Assembly (NCBI GenBank): GCA_946537305.1
Contig: CAMNFR010000005.1
Span: 1 to 64,000 of the forward strand
Direction: 5' to 3'
DNA from: an uncultured Lachnospiraceae bacterium
Lineage (GTDB): Bacteria > Bacillota > Clostridia > Lachnospirales > Lachnospiraceae
Length of the DNA stretch: 64,000 bases
The stretch's first letter is position 1. The number at the start of each line of letters is the position of its first letter. The notes beneath the pieces were generated by a model. That model searched no databases, was not told where the DNA came from, and was given only the letters and a program-made list of their open reading frames with translations. The translations under genes were made by a program, and so were the position numbers. Shown piece by piece: positions 25,765-33,362 of this stretch.

Positions 25765-26703
25765 TTACGCAAAGCTGACTACCTGTGTGACCGGCTGAGC
25801 AGGCTCCAGTTTTTCCGCATAGAGCACCGGGCCTTCTTCCCCATACTGTTTTACAAATTCCTTCCGGATGCGGGCCGTAATGGTGACCCAGGTCTTGTCC
25901 GCCCATTTATATGCTTCCGGAAAATGGCACAGATATCCCAGAAAGACCATGTCTGCCTCGCAGCAGGTCATGGCCATACGGCCGGGCACAAAGCTGTCCT
26001 TCGGCAGTGTCTTCTGCTTGTGGATCATGGCCGTAAAACGGACCGTCTTGCCGTCATAGCGATCCGGATTCTCAGAGGCATCCAGGAACCAGATGCCGTA
26101 ATCCTGATTGGTGACCTCTATGACCGGAGCGTTCAGATCGTAGGGGAGATCCTCCTCAATAAAGGCATCCAGCTCGCCCTGATCGTCCTCAAACACCACA
26201 TCACAGGAAGGGTTGACCGCCCGGAATATACGCTTGATCCGGGGAAGATCCATATCTGCGGAACTGCGGTTGACAATAATGACCTCAGAGCCGCGGGCGT
26301 TATTCCCGAAAACGGATTTCATATTGGCAAAATAGGTCTCGAACGTGGAACCGTCCACCATCATCAGCTGCTGGTGAAGGAACCATCCCTGCGGCAGGAT
26401 CAGATCTCTGGGATCCCACATGCCATTATATTCAATGATCACACGCTCCGCTCCATGCTTCTGGCGCAGCGCCTCCATGTGCGCAGGCGTCAGATCAGAC
26501 TGATCTTCGATGATCTCCGGGAAGGTACGATTCCATGCCAGCATATCCGGATCGTATTCCTCTTCCCCCTCCTCGCAGATCAGGAGCAGCGTATTCCCCT
26601 CGATGGAAAAATAGTCTTCCGTAATGGTACCGGACAGAAAGCTTGTCTTGCCGCTGTCCAGAAAACCGGTGATCAAAAATACCGGTATCTCAGGCTGTTT
26701 CAT
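25765..26703 (-). CDS. CobW/COG0523-like GTPase
   Basis: PVFLITGFLDSGKTSFLSGT P-loop; adjacent COG0523 gene. Confidence 0.8.
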   Translation of the reverse strand: MKQPEIPVFLITGFLDSGKTSFLSGTITEDYFSIEGNTLLLICEEGEEEYDPDMLAWNRTFPEIIEDQSDLTPAHMEALRQKHGAERVIIEYNGMWDPRDLILPQGWFLHQQLMMVDGSTFETYFANMKSVFGNNARGSEVIIVNRSSADMDLPRIKRIFRAVNPSCDVVFEDDQGELDAFIEEDLPYDLNAPVIEVTNQDYGIWFLDASENPDRYDGKTVRFTAMIHKQKTLPKDSFVPGRMAMTCCEADMVFLGYLCHFPEAYKWADKTWVTITARIRKEFVKQYGEEGPVLYAEKLEPAQPVTQVVSFA

Positions 26704-26709
26704 AATCTG

Positions 26710-27882
26710 TTACCTTCCTGCAAAGAGCTCTTTAATCTTATCTGTATGAATATCCGCGCCGATCACGCACACCTTACCGGTGACATCCGGCGATCCCTCG
26801 CGGACCTCTGTCTCACCGGGGACCATATCAAAATACAGCCATCCGCTGCCGTCGGCGCCGGCCACCATGCCCTTCGCACGCAGTACCGCGCCATAGGTTT
26901 CCGCATCGTCCAGTGCGGCCAGGATCTCTTCCAGCTCCGAGGTGCGGAATTTCCGGGACGTCTCACAGCCCCAGCTGGTAAACACATCATCCGCGTGGTG
27001 ATGCCCATGGTGATGATGGTGATGATGCTCGTGCTCATCCTCATCGTCGTCGTGGTGATGATGATGTTCATGTTCATGCTCATCCTCATCGTCGTCGTCA
27101 TGATGGTGATGATGATGTTCATGTTCATGCTCATCCTCATCGTCGTTGTCATGATGGTGATGATGATGCTCATGTTCATGCTCATCCTCATCGTGATGAT
27201 GGTGATGGTGATGCTCGTGCTCGTGCTCTTCCTGCTCACGGCGCACGGCTTCGATCAGTTCCTGCATCATGGCATCCTCTACCTTGCCGGCAGCTTCCAT
27301 GGTCTCCAGGATCTGTTTACCGGTGATCTCGCTCCAGTCGGTGGTGATAATGGTCGCCTTGTCATTCAGCGTACGGATCAGTTCCGTAGCCTCTGCGACC
27401 TTGGCTTCCGAGGCCATGCCTGTGCGGCTTAACACCACTGTGCCGGCCGTCTCGATCTGGTTGCTGAAGAATTCGCCGAAATTCTTCATATACACTTTGC
27501 ATTTCTTAACATCAACAACTACGATTGCTGTATTCAGTTCCACATCACAGCCCTGGGTGGCGTTCTGTACAGCCACCATAACATCAGAAAGCTTGCCCAC
27601 GCCGGAGGGCTCGATGATGATGCGGTCAGGCTGATAGGTTGACAGTACTTCCTTCAGTGCTGTTTCGAAATCACCCACCAGTGTACAGCAGATGCAGCCG
27701 GAATTCATTTCGCGGATCTCAATACCGGCCTCCTTCAGGAAACCGCCGTCAATGCCGATCTCACCGAATTCGTTCTCGATCAGTACGACCTGCTCCCCGG
27801 CCATTGCCTCTTTCAGTAGCTTCTGGATCAGCGTTGTCTTGCCGGCGCCAAGGAAACCGGAAATGATATCAACTTTTGTCAT
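26710..27882 (-). CDS. COG0523 (CobW/YeiR/ZigA-like) GTPase with extended His/Asp/Glu-rich region
   Basis: VDIISGFLGAGKTTLIQKLL, CICCTL metal-binding motif, ~75-residue HEHEHHHHHHDDDDED repeat region. Confidence 0.92.
   Translation of the reverse strand: MTKVDIISGFLGAGKTTLIQKLLKEAMAGEQVVLIENEFGEIGIDGGFLKEAGIEIREMNSGCICCTLVGDFETALKEVLSTYQPDRIIIEPSGVGKLSDVMVAVQNATQGCDVELNTAIVVVDVKKCKVYMKNFGEFFSNQIETAGTVVLSRTGMASEAKVAEATELIRTLNDKATIITTDWSEITGKQILETMEAAGKVEDAMMQELIEAVRREQEEHEHEHHHHHHHDEDEHEHEHHHHHHDNDDEDEHEHEHHHHHHDDDDEDEHEHEHHHHHDDDEDEHEHHHHHHHGHHHADDVFTSWGCETSRKFRTSELEEILAALDDAETYGAVLRAKGMVAGADGSGWLYFDMVPGETEVREGSPDVTGKVCVIGADIHTDKIKELFAGR
26995..27230 (-). repeat. In-frame tandem repeat encoding His/Asp/Glu-rich segment
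   Basis: About four units of (D)nEDEHEHEHHHHHH, unit 14-17 codons. Confidence 0.9.
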
Positions 27883-27917
27883 TTATATTACACTCCTTCC
27901 GTAAACACAATTCAATA

Positions 27918-27936
27918 TAGGGATTATTTAACCCTA
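27918..27936. promoter_or_regulatory. Dyad (possible operator) upstream of the COG0523 pair
   Basis: TAGGGATTATTTAACCCTA lies between candidate minus-strand -35 (TTGTTA) and -10 (TATATT/TATTGA) hexamers. Confidence 0.45.
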
Positions 27937-27977
27937 ACAAGTATTTATAGCACACGTTACGATAAAATGCAAACAGG

Positions 27978-28004
27978 AAAAAGCGGGCAGGCACCCGCTT
28001 TTTT
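27978..28004 (-). terminator. Rho-independent terminator for the Hsp70-like operon (potentially bidirectional)
   Basis: AAAAAGCGGGcaggcaCCCGCTTTTTT; T tract on both strands. Confidence 0.8.
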
Positions 28005-28024
28005 ATCTTTATCTGATGTGTTTA

Positions 28025-29935
28025 CTATCCCAACGGAATCTCTACAACCTCCGCCATGCTTGTGAGACACTTCTCGATCTGCGTGGAGATCTCTTCCACC
28101 ATGCGCTCCGTCAATGCCGCATTCTTTTCCTCTTCAGAATTATAATAGAAATTCTGACGGATGGCGGCGGCCAGCGTATCCTTACGATTCTCAATGGAGT
28201 GCTTCGGCGCCAGCTTACGCATGGGAATCGGAAGATCCGCTTTCAGGAATGCCGCCTCCATGGGACCTTTGCCAAGAAGCAGCAACAGGAAGGAAGCCAT
28301 GGCACCGGCCAGAATGCCCGCCGGTCCGCTGGAAAGAATCGCAATGCCGCTTCCACCACACAATAGTCCAATAATCACTGATACCAATGAATCGAACAGC
28401 CAAGTCAATTCGTCCACACCGAACACGTTTTTAGCATCGATATGGATATCGATCTCTGAAGCCTTCAGATAAGATGTCAGACTAAGTGCCGTATACGGAA
28501 TATGATGCTTTGCACAGATCGGCATGGTGTGTTCTTCCAGATCGCCAGCTACCGGCTTCAGCCATTCCGCCACCGGTCGGCGCAGCCTCTCCCTGGCTTC
28601 ATCCGAGCGGAGAAACTCTTCAATGCCACGCTGCAGCTCTGCATCGGTATCTGCGAGTCTTCGGATTTCCCCGTTTCGCCATCTGGCAAAAACTGAGGCC
28701 GCCACCTGGTCGATGATCGGATCGACCAGCGTATCGATCACAGAACGGTACAGATCAAAAATATGCTTCTGAACGATCTCTTCCACGATATGGGAGGAAT
28801 TCAGCTGCTGAAGTTCCTCGCGAAAATCCCGGAGATCATCATCGATCCTACCGCACCAGGCAAGCCCACGCGAAACAGCAAATTCCGGTTCTTTTCCGCG
28901 GATCACGATGGCATCCGGAAATACAGACAGGCACCAGTCCTGGATCACGGAAAGTCGGGAAACGCCGCCGGTCAGGAAAATCAGCTCCGGCTGGCTCTGC
29001 CCGATCTGCGCGCGCACATTCTGCAGACTGTTCACAAAGACCTCCCGGAAGGAGCGTCCCTCCAGTCGGTCCATAGGACCTTCCAGAATATTTTTCGCGA
29101 TCTTTTCGTCCACGGAGACCGTCAGACGAACGGGCGTCTCATAAAGAATGCGGACCGTTTGCCGGCAGCCGTTCTCTCTCCAATAGTCTTCATCCGAAAA
29201 ATAGGTTTCCTTGCATTTTCTGGCGGCAAATTCGCAGTAGGTGCGCCAGGCATCGCTTTTTGTGAAGATCTCCTTTATCTGAGAAGCCTGTCCGGAAGCC
29301 TTTACCGCCTCTTCCAGGATCATCTCATCCATCAGCCCGCCGCCAAGCGCCACCTCACCGGCCGTTCGCATTTCCACCTCCCGGCCACCCATGATATAGG
29401 CAAAGTCGGTCGTGGAAGATCCGATATCGACGACCAGGACCGGCCGGGACAGGATATCATATCCAACCTGCAGATGCCTGGACTGACAAGCCGAGACCAT
29501 GGCCGCCCGCGATTCTGATATGATGCGAAGCGGCGGGAAAGAGGCATCTTCAAATATCCGCCGATAATCCTCTCTGGCCTGTGCGTTCCAGCCAGCCGGG
29601 CATCCGATATAAAAGCAGCCGTCATTTTCCGGATCAATGGCTCCGCTTGTATACAGTTCAGTCAGTACACCGGAGGCAAAGCGACGGATGTCCATCCTGC
29701 TGTCACGGTCCGTAAGGAACCGTGTCTTAAAGCGTAGCCCGCGCTTCACGGCACCGGGCAGATAACAGGCCGCCTCACCGATCCTCTGGGTACCGTCAGG
29801 CATCAGGGCATAGGCAGATATAAAACTTTCCGCTCCGGCTACCGGCAGCATTTCCGGAAGTGCCGGATCATCTTTTTTCAGGTGAGAGACCGCGCTTTCG
29901 GCGTCTCCCAGATCAAAGCCGTAAAAATGTTCCAT
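28025..29935 (-). CDS. Hsp70/actin-fold ATPase with C-terminal membrane hairpin
   Basis: MEHFYGFDLGDAESAV, VLVVDIGSSTTDFAYIMGG, IFLTGGVSRLSVI actin-fold phosphate/adenosine motifs; C-terminal hydrophobic LVSVIIGLLCGGSGIAILSSGPAGILAGAMASFLLLLL. Confidence 0.8.
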   Translation of the reverse strand: MEHFYGFDLGDAESAVSHLKKDDPALPEMLPVAGAESFISAYALMPDGTQRIGEAACYLPGAVKRGLRFKTRFLTDRDSRMDIRRFASGVLTELYTSGAIDPENDGCFYIGCPAGWNAQAREDYRRIFEDASFPPLRIISESRAAMVSACQSRHLQVGYDILSRPVLVVDIGSSTTDFAYIMGGREVEMRTAGEVALGGGLMDEMILEEAVKASGQASQIKEIFTKSDAWRTYCEFAARKCKETYFSDEDYWRENGCRQTVRILYETPVRLTVSVDEKIAKNILEGPMDRLEGRSFREVFVNSLQNVRAQIGQSQPELIFLTGGVSRLSVIQDWCLSVFPDAIVIRGKEPEFAVSRGLAWCGRIDDDLRDFREELQQLNSSHIVEEIVQKHIFDLYRSVIDTLVDPIIDQVAASVFARWRNGEIRRLADTDAELQRGIEEFLRSDEARERLRRPVAEWLKPVAGDLEEHTMPICAKHHIPYTALSLTSYLKASEIDIHIDAKNVFGVDELTWLFDSLVSVIIGLLCGGSGIAILSSGPAGILAGAMASFLLLLLGKGPMEAAFLKADLPIPMRKLAPKHSIENRKDTLAAAIRQNFYYNSEEEKNAALTERMVEEISTQIEKCLTSMAEVVEIPLG

Positions 29936-29938
29936 AGA

Positions 29939-30832
29939 TCAATCCTCCGCCTCTGCCGCAAGGCCGCGGGCCAAAAGCGTGCCTTCATAGACCAGTGCCG
30001 GGCGAATCGTACTGCTCTCACGCGAAGGCAGCACATCAAACCAATCCCTGTTCTTTCCGTTATAAGAAACCTCCTGAATGCCGCGCCGGTGCAGATAATA
30101 CGGAACCTGTGCTGCCTGTTCCAGGCAGTAGGCGCCGTCTCCGCTCTTTCCAGCCTCCAGCAGCTGTCCGAGAAGCGTCCAGAGGTAACTGTCCTCACGG
30201 GCTATGGACTCCTCCGAGCGTTCTGTCAGCAGCTGTTGCTGTCCCCGCAGGATCTGTTCCAGTTCCTGGTCGATCCCCTGAATTGCGGCGGCATAGATGC
30301 GCCAGATCCTGTTAACATCCGGTACTGTTTCTACCTGCTGTTTCACGGATGGGACCGGATGACGAACCGAACGTCCCGACGCGTAAAAGCATAGGCTGCT
30401 AACGATGAGAAAACCGGCCGTCCAGGGAATAGCCTTTACGGGAAAGGTTTTTCCGAATGTCAGGAAAAGAAACATTGCCGCGGCTGCCAAACCTGCAATG
30501 CCCAGGAACAGCAGCACATGATGTTTTGCGGACATCTGCGGCTTTTCCGCTTCTTTCCCGCCGTTTTCCTTTCGCTCCCAGATGCGGGTCTCTCCCACGG
30601 TATCTGTCAGCCAGACGGCAGACTGCAATGCACGCATCATCCCAGCGGCAGCCTGTCGGCAATATGGATCGTCACATGTCTCGTTGTACTTCACCAGAAG
30701 CCGGCTGCACTCTTCCGACAGCACAGAAACAATCTTTTCTGCCGAGCCGGCGGCTTCCATTGCATGCAGAATAGATTCCCTGTCCTTTTCCAGCAGCGAA
30801 AGCATGCTGACTTGTGTTCTTCCTTCACTCAT
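29939..30832 (-). CDS. Membrane protein of unknown function (two TM segments, large N- and C-terminal soluble parts)
   Basis: 297-aa ORF between two clear genes, 4-nt overlap with upstream ORF and 3-nt gap to downstream ORF; hydrophobic VLLFLGIAGLAAAAMFLFLTF and AIPWTAGFLIVSSLCFYASG. Confidence 0.75.
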   Translation of the reverse strand: MSEGRTQVSMLSLLEKDRESILHAMEAAGSAEKIVSVLSEECSRLLVKYNETCDDPYCRQAAAGMMRALQSAVWLTDTVGETRIWERKENGGKEAEKPQMSAKHHVLLFLGIAGLAAAAMFLFLTFGKTFPVKAIPWTAGFLIVSSLCFYASGRSVRHPVPSVKQQVETVPDVNRIWRIYAAAIQGIDQELEQILRGQQQLLTERSEESIAREDSYLWTLLGQLLEAGKSGDGAYCLEQAAQVPYYLHRRGIQEVSYNGKNRDWFDVLPSRESSTIRPALVYEGTLLARGLAAEAED

Positions 30833-31431
30833 GATCTATCACCATTATTCATTCTTGTACCGGACATCCACTTTTCACAGAGACAAATCGATCCACTTTG
30901 AAGGGATGACTGAAGATCTACGATCCGCTGATTCCGTGATCCCCGAAATGCCAGCAGCAGGTCTTTTTCCTCTTCGTGAAACCTTCCGTCTACCAGGACA
31001 TCTGTCAGTGTCAGTATTTCATGAAGTTCCGGAATATCCGCCCGTTTTCGCCGTTCCTGATCCTCACCGGCACCGGGATCTGTCAGGGTGAATCTTCCCT
31101 TCTCCGCCTTCAGTGTAAAACCGGTATAGATCCAAATGTCTTTTCCGGGAAGGATTTCCCGGATCAATCGCAGCAGCGGCAGCAGATCCCGTTGATTTTC
31201 CGGCTCCATGGGTTCACCGCCCAGAACAGTCAACCCCTGAATATAATCCGGTCTAAGTTCCTCCAGTAACTGCATCTGTGCTGCTTTATCGAATTCCTTT
31301 CCGTAGGAAAAATCCCAGGTGTGCGCACTGAAACAGCCGGGACAGTGATTTCTGCACCCGGAAACAAACAGGGATACCCGAACGCCCGGCCCGTTTTCTA
31401 TACTGAAAGGTTTAATGTTTCCGAAATACAT
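30829..31431 (-). CDS. NrdG-like glycyl-radical-enzyme activase (radical SAM, single 4Fe-4S)
   Basis: VSGCRNHCPGCFSAHTWDFSYGKEF (CX3CX2C), LTVLGGEPMEPENQ. Confidence 0.85.
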   Translation of the reverse strand: MYFGNIKPFSIENGPGVRVSLFVSGCRNHCPGCFSAHTWDFSYGKEFDKAAQMQLLEELRPDYIQGLTVLGGEPMEPENQRDLLPLLRLIREILPGKDIWIYTGFTLKAEKGRFTLTDPGAGEDQERRKRADIPELHEILTLTDVLVDGRFHEEEKDLLLAFRGSRNQRIVDLQSSLQSGSICLCEKWMSGTRMNNGDRS

Positions 31432-31472
31432 TGATCTCTCCTACGAAGCAGCAATCTTTGTTGATCGTATTT

Positions 31473-31502
31473 ATTATACGGCAATCGTTTGGAGATGGTC
31501 AA
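31473..31502 (-). promoter_or_regulatory. Sigma70-type promoter for the NrdG-like/Hsp70-like operon
   Basis: Minus strand TTGACC-18 nt-TATAAT, 41 nt upstream of the start codon. Confidence 0.65.
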
Positions 31503-31589
31503 CCTTCAAATTTGCGGCAGTGTCGGGTTGTAGTAAAAGAGCACGTTCACTGGGAAATTAAAGTTTGCGCGTTAGCATTGAGTCCATGC

Positions 31590-31654
31590 GCCAAGAAACA
31601 TTAAGCAGACACGGAGGAGCTTGCTCATCCGGGACTGCTTAATGTTTTCTTGGC
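31590..31654. repeat. Long imperfect hairpin in intergenic region
   Basis: gccaagaaacattaagcag (31590-31608) / ctgcttaatgttttcttggc (31635-31654), one bulged nt, 26-nt loop. Confidence 0.85.
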
Positions 31655-31748
31655 ATACGGCGAAAGCCGCGACAGCGAGCGCCCGCGAATGCGGGTGCGA
31701 GATGGAGGCATGGACGCAGGTCGTGGTACGTGTTGTGGTGCATGTCGC

Positions 31749-31799
31749 GGTGCAAAATCTGGGGTAATGAAATATTTTTAATACCTCGGAATTTGCACA
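31749..31799. repeat. Palindromic repeat unit 1
   Basis: ggTGCAAAATCTGGGGTAATGAAATATTTTTAATACCTCGGAATTTGCACA, related to units at 31833, 31909, 31980. Confidence 0.75.
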
Positions 31800-31832
31800 A
31801 CATGCCATTTATGACCTTTGAAAAGAATGATA

Positions 31833-31945
31833 TGTGCAATTCTTAAGGTCGTAAGATAGATTTACTACCCTTTTTGACTCCTTCTGCTTGCCTCAGAGAC
31901 GGAAAAGGGGTAGCAAATCTTGTTTACCACACAGGAAATTGCACA
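31833..31945. repeat. Palindromic repeat units 2 and 3, arranged head-to-head as an inverted pair
   Basis: TGTGCAATTCTTAAGGTCGTAAGATAGATTTACTACCC (31833-31870) vs GGTAGCAAATCTTGTTTACCACACAGGAAATTGCACA (31909-31945) in inverse orientation. Confidence 0.75.
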
Positions 31946-31979
31946 AATCAATTTTGGCACAGGATTACTATATCTGGGA

Positions 31980-32031
31980 TGTGCACAATACGAGGTAGCA
32001 AAGATTGTTTGCTGCCCTGGAATTTTGCACA
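31980..32031. repeat. Palindromic repeat unit 4
   Basis: TGTGCACAATACGAGGTAGCAAA-GATTG-TTTGCTGCCCTGGAATTTTGCACA. Confidence 0.8.
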
Positions 32032-32116
32032 GATTATTTCTAGAGAATACGCAGCCGAAGCTTTTCAATGACAGATATAAGCAAATCGACAAACCTATAT
32101 TTGAAGAAATTAGCAT

Positions 32117-32146
32117 AAAAAAGCTGCCGCAGATACTGCGGCAGCC
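32117..32146 (-). terminator. Rho-independent terminator for ackA
   Basis: GCTGCCGCAGTATCTGCGGCAGC followed by TTTTTT on minus strand. Confidence 0.88.
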
Positions 32147-32168
32147 AAAAGAATTCTTTTAGTGGAAA

Positions 32169-33362
32169 TTACTGCACCAGACGAACGGTCTCGCGGGCAA
32201 TTGCCAGCTCTTCGTTCGTGGGATACAGCACGACCTGCACCTTGGAATCGGGAGCAGAGATGATGCGTGCTTCGCCGCGGACGTTGTTGGCTTCATCGTC
32301 GATCTTAACGCCCAGATAGCCAAGGTACTCGCAGATAGCCTTTCTGGTCTTCATATCATTCTCGCCTACGCCGGCAGTGAAAGCAATGGCATCTACACCG
32401 TTCATAGCAGCGGTGTAAGCACCGATGTACTTCGCGACACGGTATACGAACGCATCCAGTGCGACAGCAGCTTCTTCGTTGCCCTCTTCTCTGGCCTTTT
32501 CAACATCACGGAAGTCAGAGGAGACCTCGGACATGCCCAGCATACCGGACTTCTTGTTCAGGATGTTCAGCATTTCGTTGATATCCTTGCCTTCTTTGTT
32601 CATGATGAACTGCAGAACAGCGGGATCCACATCACCGGAACGGGTGCCCATGATCAGACCTTCCAGAGGAGTCAGGCCCATGGAGGTATCTACGCACTTG
32701 CCGCCGATGGAAGCAGAGATGCTGCCGCCGTTGCCCAGATGGCAAACAATAACTTTGCCCTTCTTGGGATCCAGGTGGCAGAACTTCAGGACTTCACCGG
32801 ACACGAACATATGGCTGGTGCCGTGGAAGCCGTAGCGGCGGATGCTGTACTTCTCATAGTACTCATGAGGGATAGCATACATGTAAGCCTTGGGAGGCAT
32901 GGACATACCGAAGGTGGTATCGAATACAGCCACGTTCGGGGTGCCGGGCATAGCTTCCTCACAGGCCTCGATGCCCATCAGGTTGGCCGGGTTATGCAGC
33001 GGGCCAAGATCGAAGCACTCGCGGATAACATCCTTTACCTGCTGATTGACAACGATAGATTCCGTGAACTTGATGCCGCCGTGCAGTACGCGGTGACCGA
33101 TTGCGGAGATCTCACTGGTATCCTTGATGACACCGTGCTCCGGATCCACCAGCGCATCCATGACCAGCTTAATAGCCTGGGTATGGGTGGGCATGGGGGC
33201 TTCCTGAACAAAAGGCTCTTTGCCGGTGGGCTTGTGGGTCAGTACAGAACCCTCAATACCGATACGCTCGCAGAGACCCTTGGCGATAACGCTCTCGTTA
33301 TCCATGTCGATCAGCTGATACTTCAGCGATGAGCTTCCGCAGTTAAGAACTAAAACTTTCAT
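32169..33362 (-). CDS. ackA: Acetate kinase
   Basis: MKVLVLNCGSSSLKYQLIDM...GFHGTSH...; start placed at 33362 rather than 33446. Confidence 0.97.
   Translation of the reverse strand: MKVLVLNCGSSSLKYQLIDMDNESVIAKGLCERIGIEGSVLTHKPTGKEPFVQEAPMPTHTQAIKLVMDALVDPEHGVIKDTSEISAIGHRVLHGGIKFTESIVVNQQVKDVIRECFDLGPLHNPANLMGIEACEEAMPGTPNVAVFDTTFGMSMPPKAYMYAIPHEYYEKYSIRRYGFHGTSHMFVSGEVLKFCHLDPKKGKVIVCHLGNGGSISASIGGKCVDTSMGLTPLEGLIMGTRSGDVDPAVLQFIMNKEGKDINEMLNILNKKSGMLGMSEVSSDFRDVEKAREEGNEEAAVALDAFVYRVAKYIGAYTAAMNGVDAIAFTAGVGENDMKTRKAICEYLGYLGVKIDDEANNVRGEARIISAPDSKVQVVLYPTNEELAIARETVRLVQ

Follow-up and report, generated by a model that had tools for sequence, protein, structure and literature searches.

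A conserved gene pair for a membrane-anchored Hsp70-type ATPase and a predicted GrpE-like membrane protein, located next to nrdG in a Lachnospiraceae genome

Hsp70 machines are normally defined by their peptide-binding domain, and the beta-wing of GrpE is the part that contacts the ATPase domain of DnaK. Genes for HSP70 and GrpE are also contained in predicted conflict systems centred on GAP1-N2 GTPases (PMC7159879). Here, three adjacent genes of an uncultured Lachnospiraceae bacterium (assembly GCA_946537305.1, contig CAMNFR010000005.1) were analysed within a stretch of 64,000 nucleotides, called the window in the following. Two of them, genes 2 and 3, encode a membrane protein with a GrpE-like predicted fold and a membrane-anchored Hsp70-type ATPase. 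Judging by the open literature searched, they represent an uncharacterised variant of the Hsp70-exchange-factor machinery, and no description of such a membrane Hsp70/GrpE-like pair was found there. The three genes are the following:

30829..31431, minus strand: gene 1, nrdG (200 amino acids)
29939..30832, minus strand: gene 2, GrpE-like membrane protein (297 amino acids)
28025..29935, minus strand: gene 3, membrane-anchored Hsp70-type ATPase without substrate-binding domain (636 amino acids)

The GAP1-N2 systems resemble the pair in having Hsp70 genes, some of which lack the peptide-binding domain, in being linked to GrpE and in their membrane association (PMC7159879). In contrast, the pair stands alone: no GTPase, vWA, tubulin or FNIII genes were recognised beside it, GAP1 not having been included among the profile searches. 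Another coupling of Hsp70-like and GrpE parts is found in the same genome on contig C83, where a protein of 520 amino acids (L132, 1495-3057) is weakly Hsp70-like in its N-terminal part and contains a true GrpE domain (83 bits). Unlike the pair, it unites both parts in one polypeptide, its GrpE domain is genuine and its gene lies on another contig. Several further genomes of the order likewise contain GrpE domains within long frames of about 570-650 amino acids, and Hsp70-GrpE fusions may be common in that order.

The initial annotation had described the three genes as a self-contained cassette in which a radical S-adenosylmethionine (radical-SAM) activase takes part. A scan of GTDB genomes with gene 3 returned 80 loci, most of them 52-65% identical over the full length. 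Gene 2 was located directly upstream of gene 3 in 77 of these, while the other three end at a contig edge. The presence of nrdG was assessed in those 69 loci in which more than 700 bases precede gene 2. It preceded gene 2 in none of them; a weak match of 27% identity lies about 1 kb upstream in locus L034, on the opposite strand. Besides gene 2, no gene family accompanies gene 3 in more than 15 loci; those neighbours that were looked up are unrelated (alpha-amylase, glycosyltransferase, tRNA methyltransferase, endonuclease III-like protein). Genes 2 and 3 are a real conserved unit, and the three-gene cassette is not conserved. The cassette thus holds for this genome and for no other assessable locus; co-occurrence beyond close strains applies to genes 2 and 3 but not to gene 1. 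The role given to the activase has to be abandoned, as gene 1 accompanies the pair in no other locus and nrdD is found elsewhere in the genome. The view that the locus is not a plain operon for anaerobic ribonucleotide reductase, and that it contains an undescribed membrane-associated Hsp70-like system, was upheld with genes 2 and 3 as that system.

The occurrence of the pair is patchy. In the genome family of locus L052, titled Erysipelotrichaceae, gene 3 was detected in 41 of 245 genomes; gene 2 accompanied it in 18 of 20 fetched loci, and the other two end near the start of gene 3. Just 3 of the 61 genomes related to that of the window carry gene 3, and a sample of 399 genomes across the phylum gave only the window's own copy and one partial match. 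The tree of gene 3 intermixes Lachnospiraceae, Oscillospiraceae and Erysipelotrichaceae, as named in the record titles. This mixed tree together with the patchy occurrence suggests that the pair has probably been transferred horizontally. Where the record titles of the 80 loci reveal a source, it is nearly always the ruminant gut, with one case of horse faeces; titles with RUG and RUI are here taken to denote rumen isolates. A named strain, Sarcina sp. DSM 11001 (L054), also carries the pair.

A distant copy was identified on a conjugative plasmid of the cyanobacterium Calothrix brevissima (AP018209.1), the only one of 72,556 plasmid records with the pair. It encodes a full-length relative of gene 3 (28% identity, E-value 4e-63), which aligns over 606 columns in hhalign. 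The gene directly upstream is a relative of gene 2 (hhalign probability 83%, E-value 9e-6). In the deposited record this gene (L163, 8997-9980) is seemingly frameshifted near the C-terminus, and the neighbouring frame reads YFDFEPSIDPDSKDYVTLAPALLKGDRLLRRG, which resembles the beta-wing of gene 2. Since the relatives of both genes are adjacent, the pairing spans phyla.

Gene 3 had been annotated as an Hsp70/actin-like ATPase with a membrane hairpin. The Hsp70-type domain and the hairpin-like segments were both confirmed, but the fold search does not support a generic actin-like protein. In the predicted model (mean predicted local distance difference test score, pLDDT, 81.5), the top 50 PDB matches of the N-terminal domain in Foldseek are all Hsp70, mostly isolated nucleotide-binding domains (E-values of about 1e-13 to 1e-12). 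None of the 59 members deviates at D8, G10, K70, E141, D170, G172, T175 or D177, nor at the GG of the adenosine motif, and these intact catalytic residues suggest that gene 3 binds and hydrolyses ATP. The DnaK of the same genome aligns with residues 1-360. Gene 3 thus shares with DnaK/Hsp70 (PF00012) the fold and the catalytic residues of the nucleotide-binding domain. It differs downstream, where no substrate-binding domain made of beta-sandwich and lid is present past residue 363. According to the model and hydropathy, residues 364-636 consist of helices and a membrane hairpin with peaks at 517-535 and 537-555, followed by further helices and a conserved tail other than that of DnaK. The last 14 residues, ending in EVVEIPLG, are the most conserved region of gene 3 (87% mean majority), and the tail is a likely docking site. 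No J-protein gene was recognised among the neighbours of the pair that were examined. The features of gene 3 are as follows:

28847..29935, minus strand: residues 1-363, Hsp70 nucleotide-binding domain (Foldseek and invariant catalytic residues)
28271..28417, minus strand: residues 507-555, glycine-rich membrane hairpin (hydropathy; region of low model confidence)
28028..28069, minus strand: residues 623-636, C-terminal tail with the consensus KMAEVVEIPLG (V631-P634 invariant)

Searches with gene 2 gave nothing in Pfam or PADLOC and nothing convincing in NCBIfam. Two hydrophobic peaks support the two transmembrane segments of the initial annotation, and they are likewise present in most family members. 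The protein had been regarded there as an unknown; it is not wholly featureless, as its C-terminal half is GrpE-like in the predicted fold. Two regions stand out:

30368..30529, minus strand: residues 102-155, two transmembrane helices (hydropathy over 70 members; helices 102-125 and 132-155 in the model)
29948..30082, minus strand: residues 251-295, GrpE-like beta-wing (F265, P269, T275, P278, A279 and G290 invariant)

The beta-wing is the most conserved stretch of gene 2, and the likeness of its end (FDxLPxxxxGTIRPALVxxGxLLKKGLA) to the GrpE beta-wing had been proposed by eye before a structure model existed. The model, with a pLDDT of 88, displays an N-terminal helical domain, the transmembrane pair, a helix of 39 residues, shorter helices and a small beta domain. 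In a Foldseek search against the PDB, GrpE of Thermus (3a6m) ranked first with a probability of 0.95 and was covered over nearly its whole length, whereas the second rank reached 0.11. The predicted fold of gene 2 tentatively resembles that of GrpE (PF01025) in a long helix, shorter helices and a C-terminal beta-wing, and gene 2 is partnered with an Hsp70-type ATPase. Gene 2 differs by its membrane anchor, by the extra N-terminal helical domain, by the lack of the FDPxxHEA turn and by the lack of detectable sequence homology. Gene 2 also evolves fast, with 23-38% identity to the window copy compared to near 57% for gene 3.

Several results weigh against an exchange factor acting on gene 3. The match to 3a6m is weak both in E-value (0.097) and in whole-chain template modelling score (TM-score, 0.35 by target). 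GrpE was not among the families shown in a Pfam scan of 70 gene 2 members, local and global hhalign comparisons with GrpE gave a probability below 1%, and hmmsearch against GrpE gave real scores no better than those of shuffled sequences. Neither the PDB profile search nor the viral structure library returned GrpE for gene 2. On the side of gene 3, the hairpin region is poorly modelled, and the proposed direct contact of the two proteins is deduced from their genetic linkage. Family membership of gene 2 in GrpE by sequence was rejected, every profile test being negative. In view of the fold match on the one hand and the weak E-value, the low TM-score and the negative profiles on the other, gene 2 can be described as GrpE-like in its predicted fold but not as a member of the GrpE family.

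Gene 1 was annotated as NrdG-like, which is borne out by its score of 158.4 bits with the NrdG equivalog TIGR02491 (cut-off 126.1). It corresponds to NrdG over the whole protein, with an intact CX3CX2C cluster motif (C26/C30/C33) and an intact GGEP motif, and the cysteines are invariant in the alignment with its relatives. The difference from NrdG is that it does not adjoin nrdD. Its best relatives, from 60 related genomes, are 45-57% identical; compared to them, gene 1 carries about 14 additional residues as a loop behind residue 115 and is slightly extended at the C-terminus. In 12 of 18 neighbourhoods of these relatives examined, nrdD is located beside nrdG, and the neighbouring NrdD is 51-77% identical to the NrdD which the window's own genome encodes on contig C12. 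This genome, which is 83% complete, has two nrdD genes, on contigs C9 and C12. The C12 protein ends in RRTCGYIGTQFWNQGR, the glycyl-radical site, and the 10 kb taken around its gene gave no nrdG-like sequence. Contig C9 contains a second, distant and intact nrdD-nrdG pair. The two class III ribonucleotide reductase large subunits of C9 and C12 are only 27% identical within this one genome. Since nrdG of the relatives mostly lies beside a C12-like nrdD and the nrdD of C12 has none, gene 1 is most likely the activase of the C12 NrdD, relocated away from its gene. Gene 1 is a hitch-hiker outside the conserved two-gene unit. Two types of repeats are located upstream of it:

31563..31716, no strand: multi-copy repeat of the first type, just upstream of the gene 1 promoter (full-length copies in the genome 84-97% identical)
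31723..31860, no strand: repeat of the second type, likewise upstream of gene 1 (present several times in the genome at 83-87% identity)

The first type contains an internal inverted repeat at 31596-31647 (88% complementary). The second type has a copy on contig C12, at a distance of about 4 kb from the nrdD without nrdG. Both types are possibly small mobile elements, and their positions upstream of gene 1 and on C12 make a rearrangement plausible without proving it.

We moderately favour the reading that the locus holds an NrdG and a membrane Hsp70 module with a GrpE-like partner, which share one transcript and are functionally unrelated. Gene 1 would place the glycyl radical on the NrdD of contig C12. 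It would have been split from that nrdD and have landed before the pair near multi-copy repeats, where it would be transcribed together with genes 2 and 3. In place of a peptide-binding domain, the ATPase cycle of gene 3 would move its own C-terminal helical and hairpin region. Gene 2 would be held beside gene 3 in the membrane by its own hairpin, and its beta-wing would open the nucleotide cleft of gene 3, leading to ADP release and reset of the switch. Only tentatively, and with rather less confidence, the pair may be regarded as a membrane Hsp70 system that stands by itself and moves horizontally. Its hairpin would replace the peptide-binding domain, the GrpE-like exchange factor would be its own and fixed in the membrane, and an ATP-driven switch would operate inside the membrane with no need of a substrate-binding domain. 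Possible tasks are membrane-protein remodelling, envelope stress and mobile-element conflict.

Alternatively, the pair could be a membrane-bound ATPase in which gene 2 serves as scaffold or client-binding subunit and resembles GrpE by convergence, with no exchange factor involved. The failure of every profile test to relate gene 2 to GrpE by sequence speaks for this explanation, as does the fast divergence of gene 2 (23-38%) next to a gene 3 that stays near 57%. However, GrpE is the sole credible structural match among PDB chains, it is the known partner of exactly the domain type found in gene 3, and the GrpE-like beta-wing is the most conserved part of gene 2. The scaffold function is regarded as rather unlikely. 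A different purpose, namely an anti-phage or mobile-element conflict module whose hairpins form a membrane effector triggered by the Hsp70 ATPase, would fit the patchy, probably horizontally spread distribution, the location on a conjugative plasmid in Calothrix and the Hsp70 and GrpE of the predicted GAP1-N2 conflict systems (PMC7159879). This explanation overlaps with the favoured one and differs from it in purpose only. It appears improbable, as the pair has no PADLOC match, no relatives in phages or viral contigs and no conserved defence neighbours. A phage origin and a known defence system were both rejected on the first two of these results.

Gene 3 could also be a cytoskeletal or plasmid-segregation actin of the ParM/MreB type which forms filaments at the membrane; weak profile matches to MreB/ParM and to a phage partition protein, as well as the homologue on a plasmid, can be cited in its favour. 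The MreB/ParM matches are nevertheless below cut-off and the weak matches fall in the shared phosphate-binding core, Hsp70/DnaK structures fill the top 50 fold matches, and the identified neighbours are ordinary metabolic or housekeeping genes. The fold search led us to reject the actin reading, which is very unlikely. Least credible of all is a joint action of the radical-SAM activase and the pair on a membrane target. It draws on the close spacing of the three genes behind a single promoter-like site in this genome, and is countered by the absence of gene 1 before the pair in all 69 assessable loci, by the standard NrdG nature of gene 1 above the equivalog cut-off and by the presence in the genome of an nrdD without its usual nrdG. 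Such a three-gene system was ruled out by the gene neighbourhoods.

Re-reading of the sequence gave the same positions and spacing of the open reading frames, the same promoter-like site and the same hairpin as the initial annotation. The overlap of genes 1 and 2 is 4 nt long, and 3 nt separate gene 2 from gene 3. The signals flanking the three genes are:

31473..31502, minus strand: sigma-70-type promoter-like site TTGACC-18-TATAAT (11 of 12 positions match)
27977..28004, no strand: terminator-like hairpin GCGGG-loop-CCCGC with A/T tracts on both flanks, just 3' of gene 3

The promoter-like site is the only match of the promoter scan in 27880-32170; at a looser cut-off, shuffled sequence yields 3.5 +/- 1.9 matches. 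Its function as a promoter is plausible, not proven. An Rfam scan of the locus gave sub-threshold matches only. Further downstream in the window, a gene on the minus strand (26710-27882) appears by eye to code for a CobW-type GTPase-like protein with very long His/Asp/Glu runs. It is adjoined by a similar-looking second gene (25765-26703), and the two look like a metal-handling pair.

The locus illustrates how an ordinary gene such as nrdG, once relocated by chance, can resemble a part of a new system. The pair itself occurs both in Firmicutes of the ruminant gut and on a cyanobacterial plasmid, and its carriage by Sarcina sp. DSM 11001 means that it may be testable in culture. If the proposed function is true, the Hsp70 motor would have been reused as a membrane switch, with peptide binding replaced by membrane segments in both proteins.

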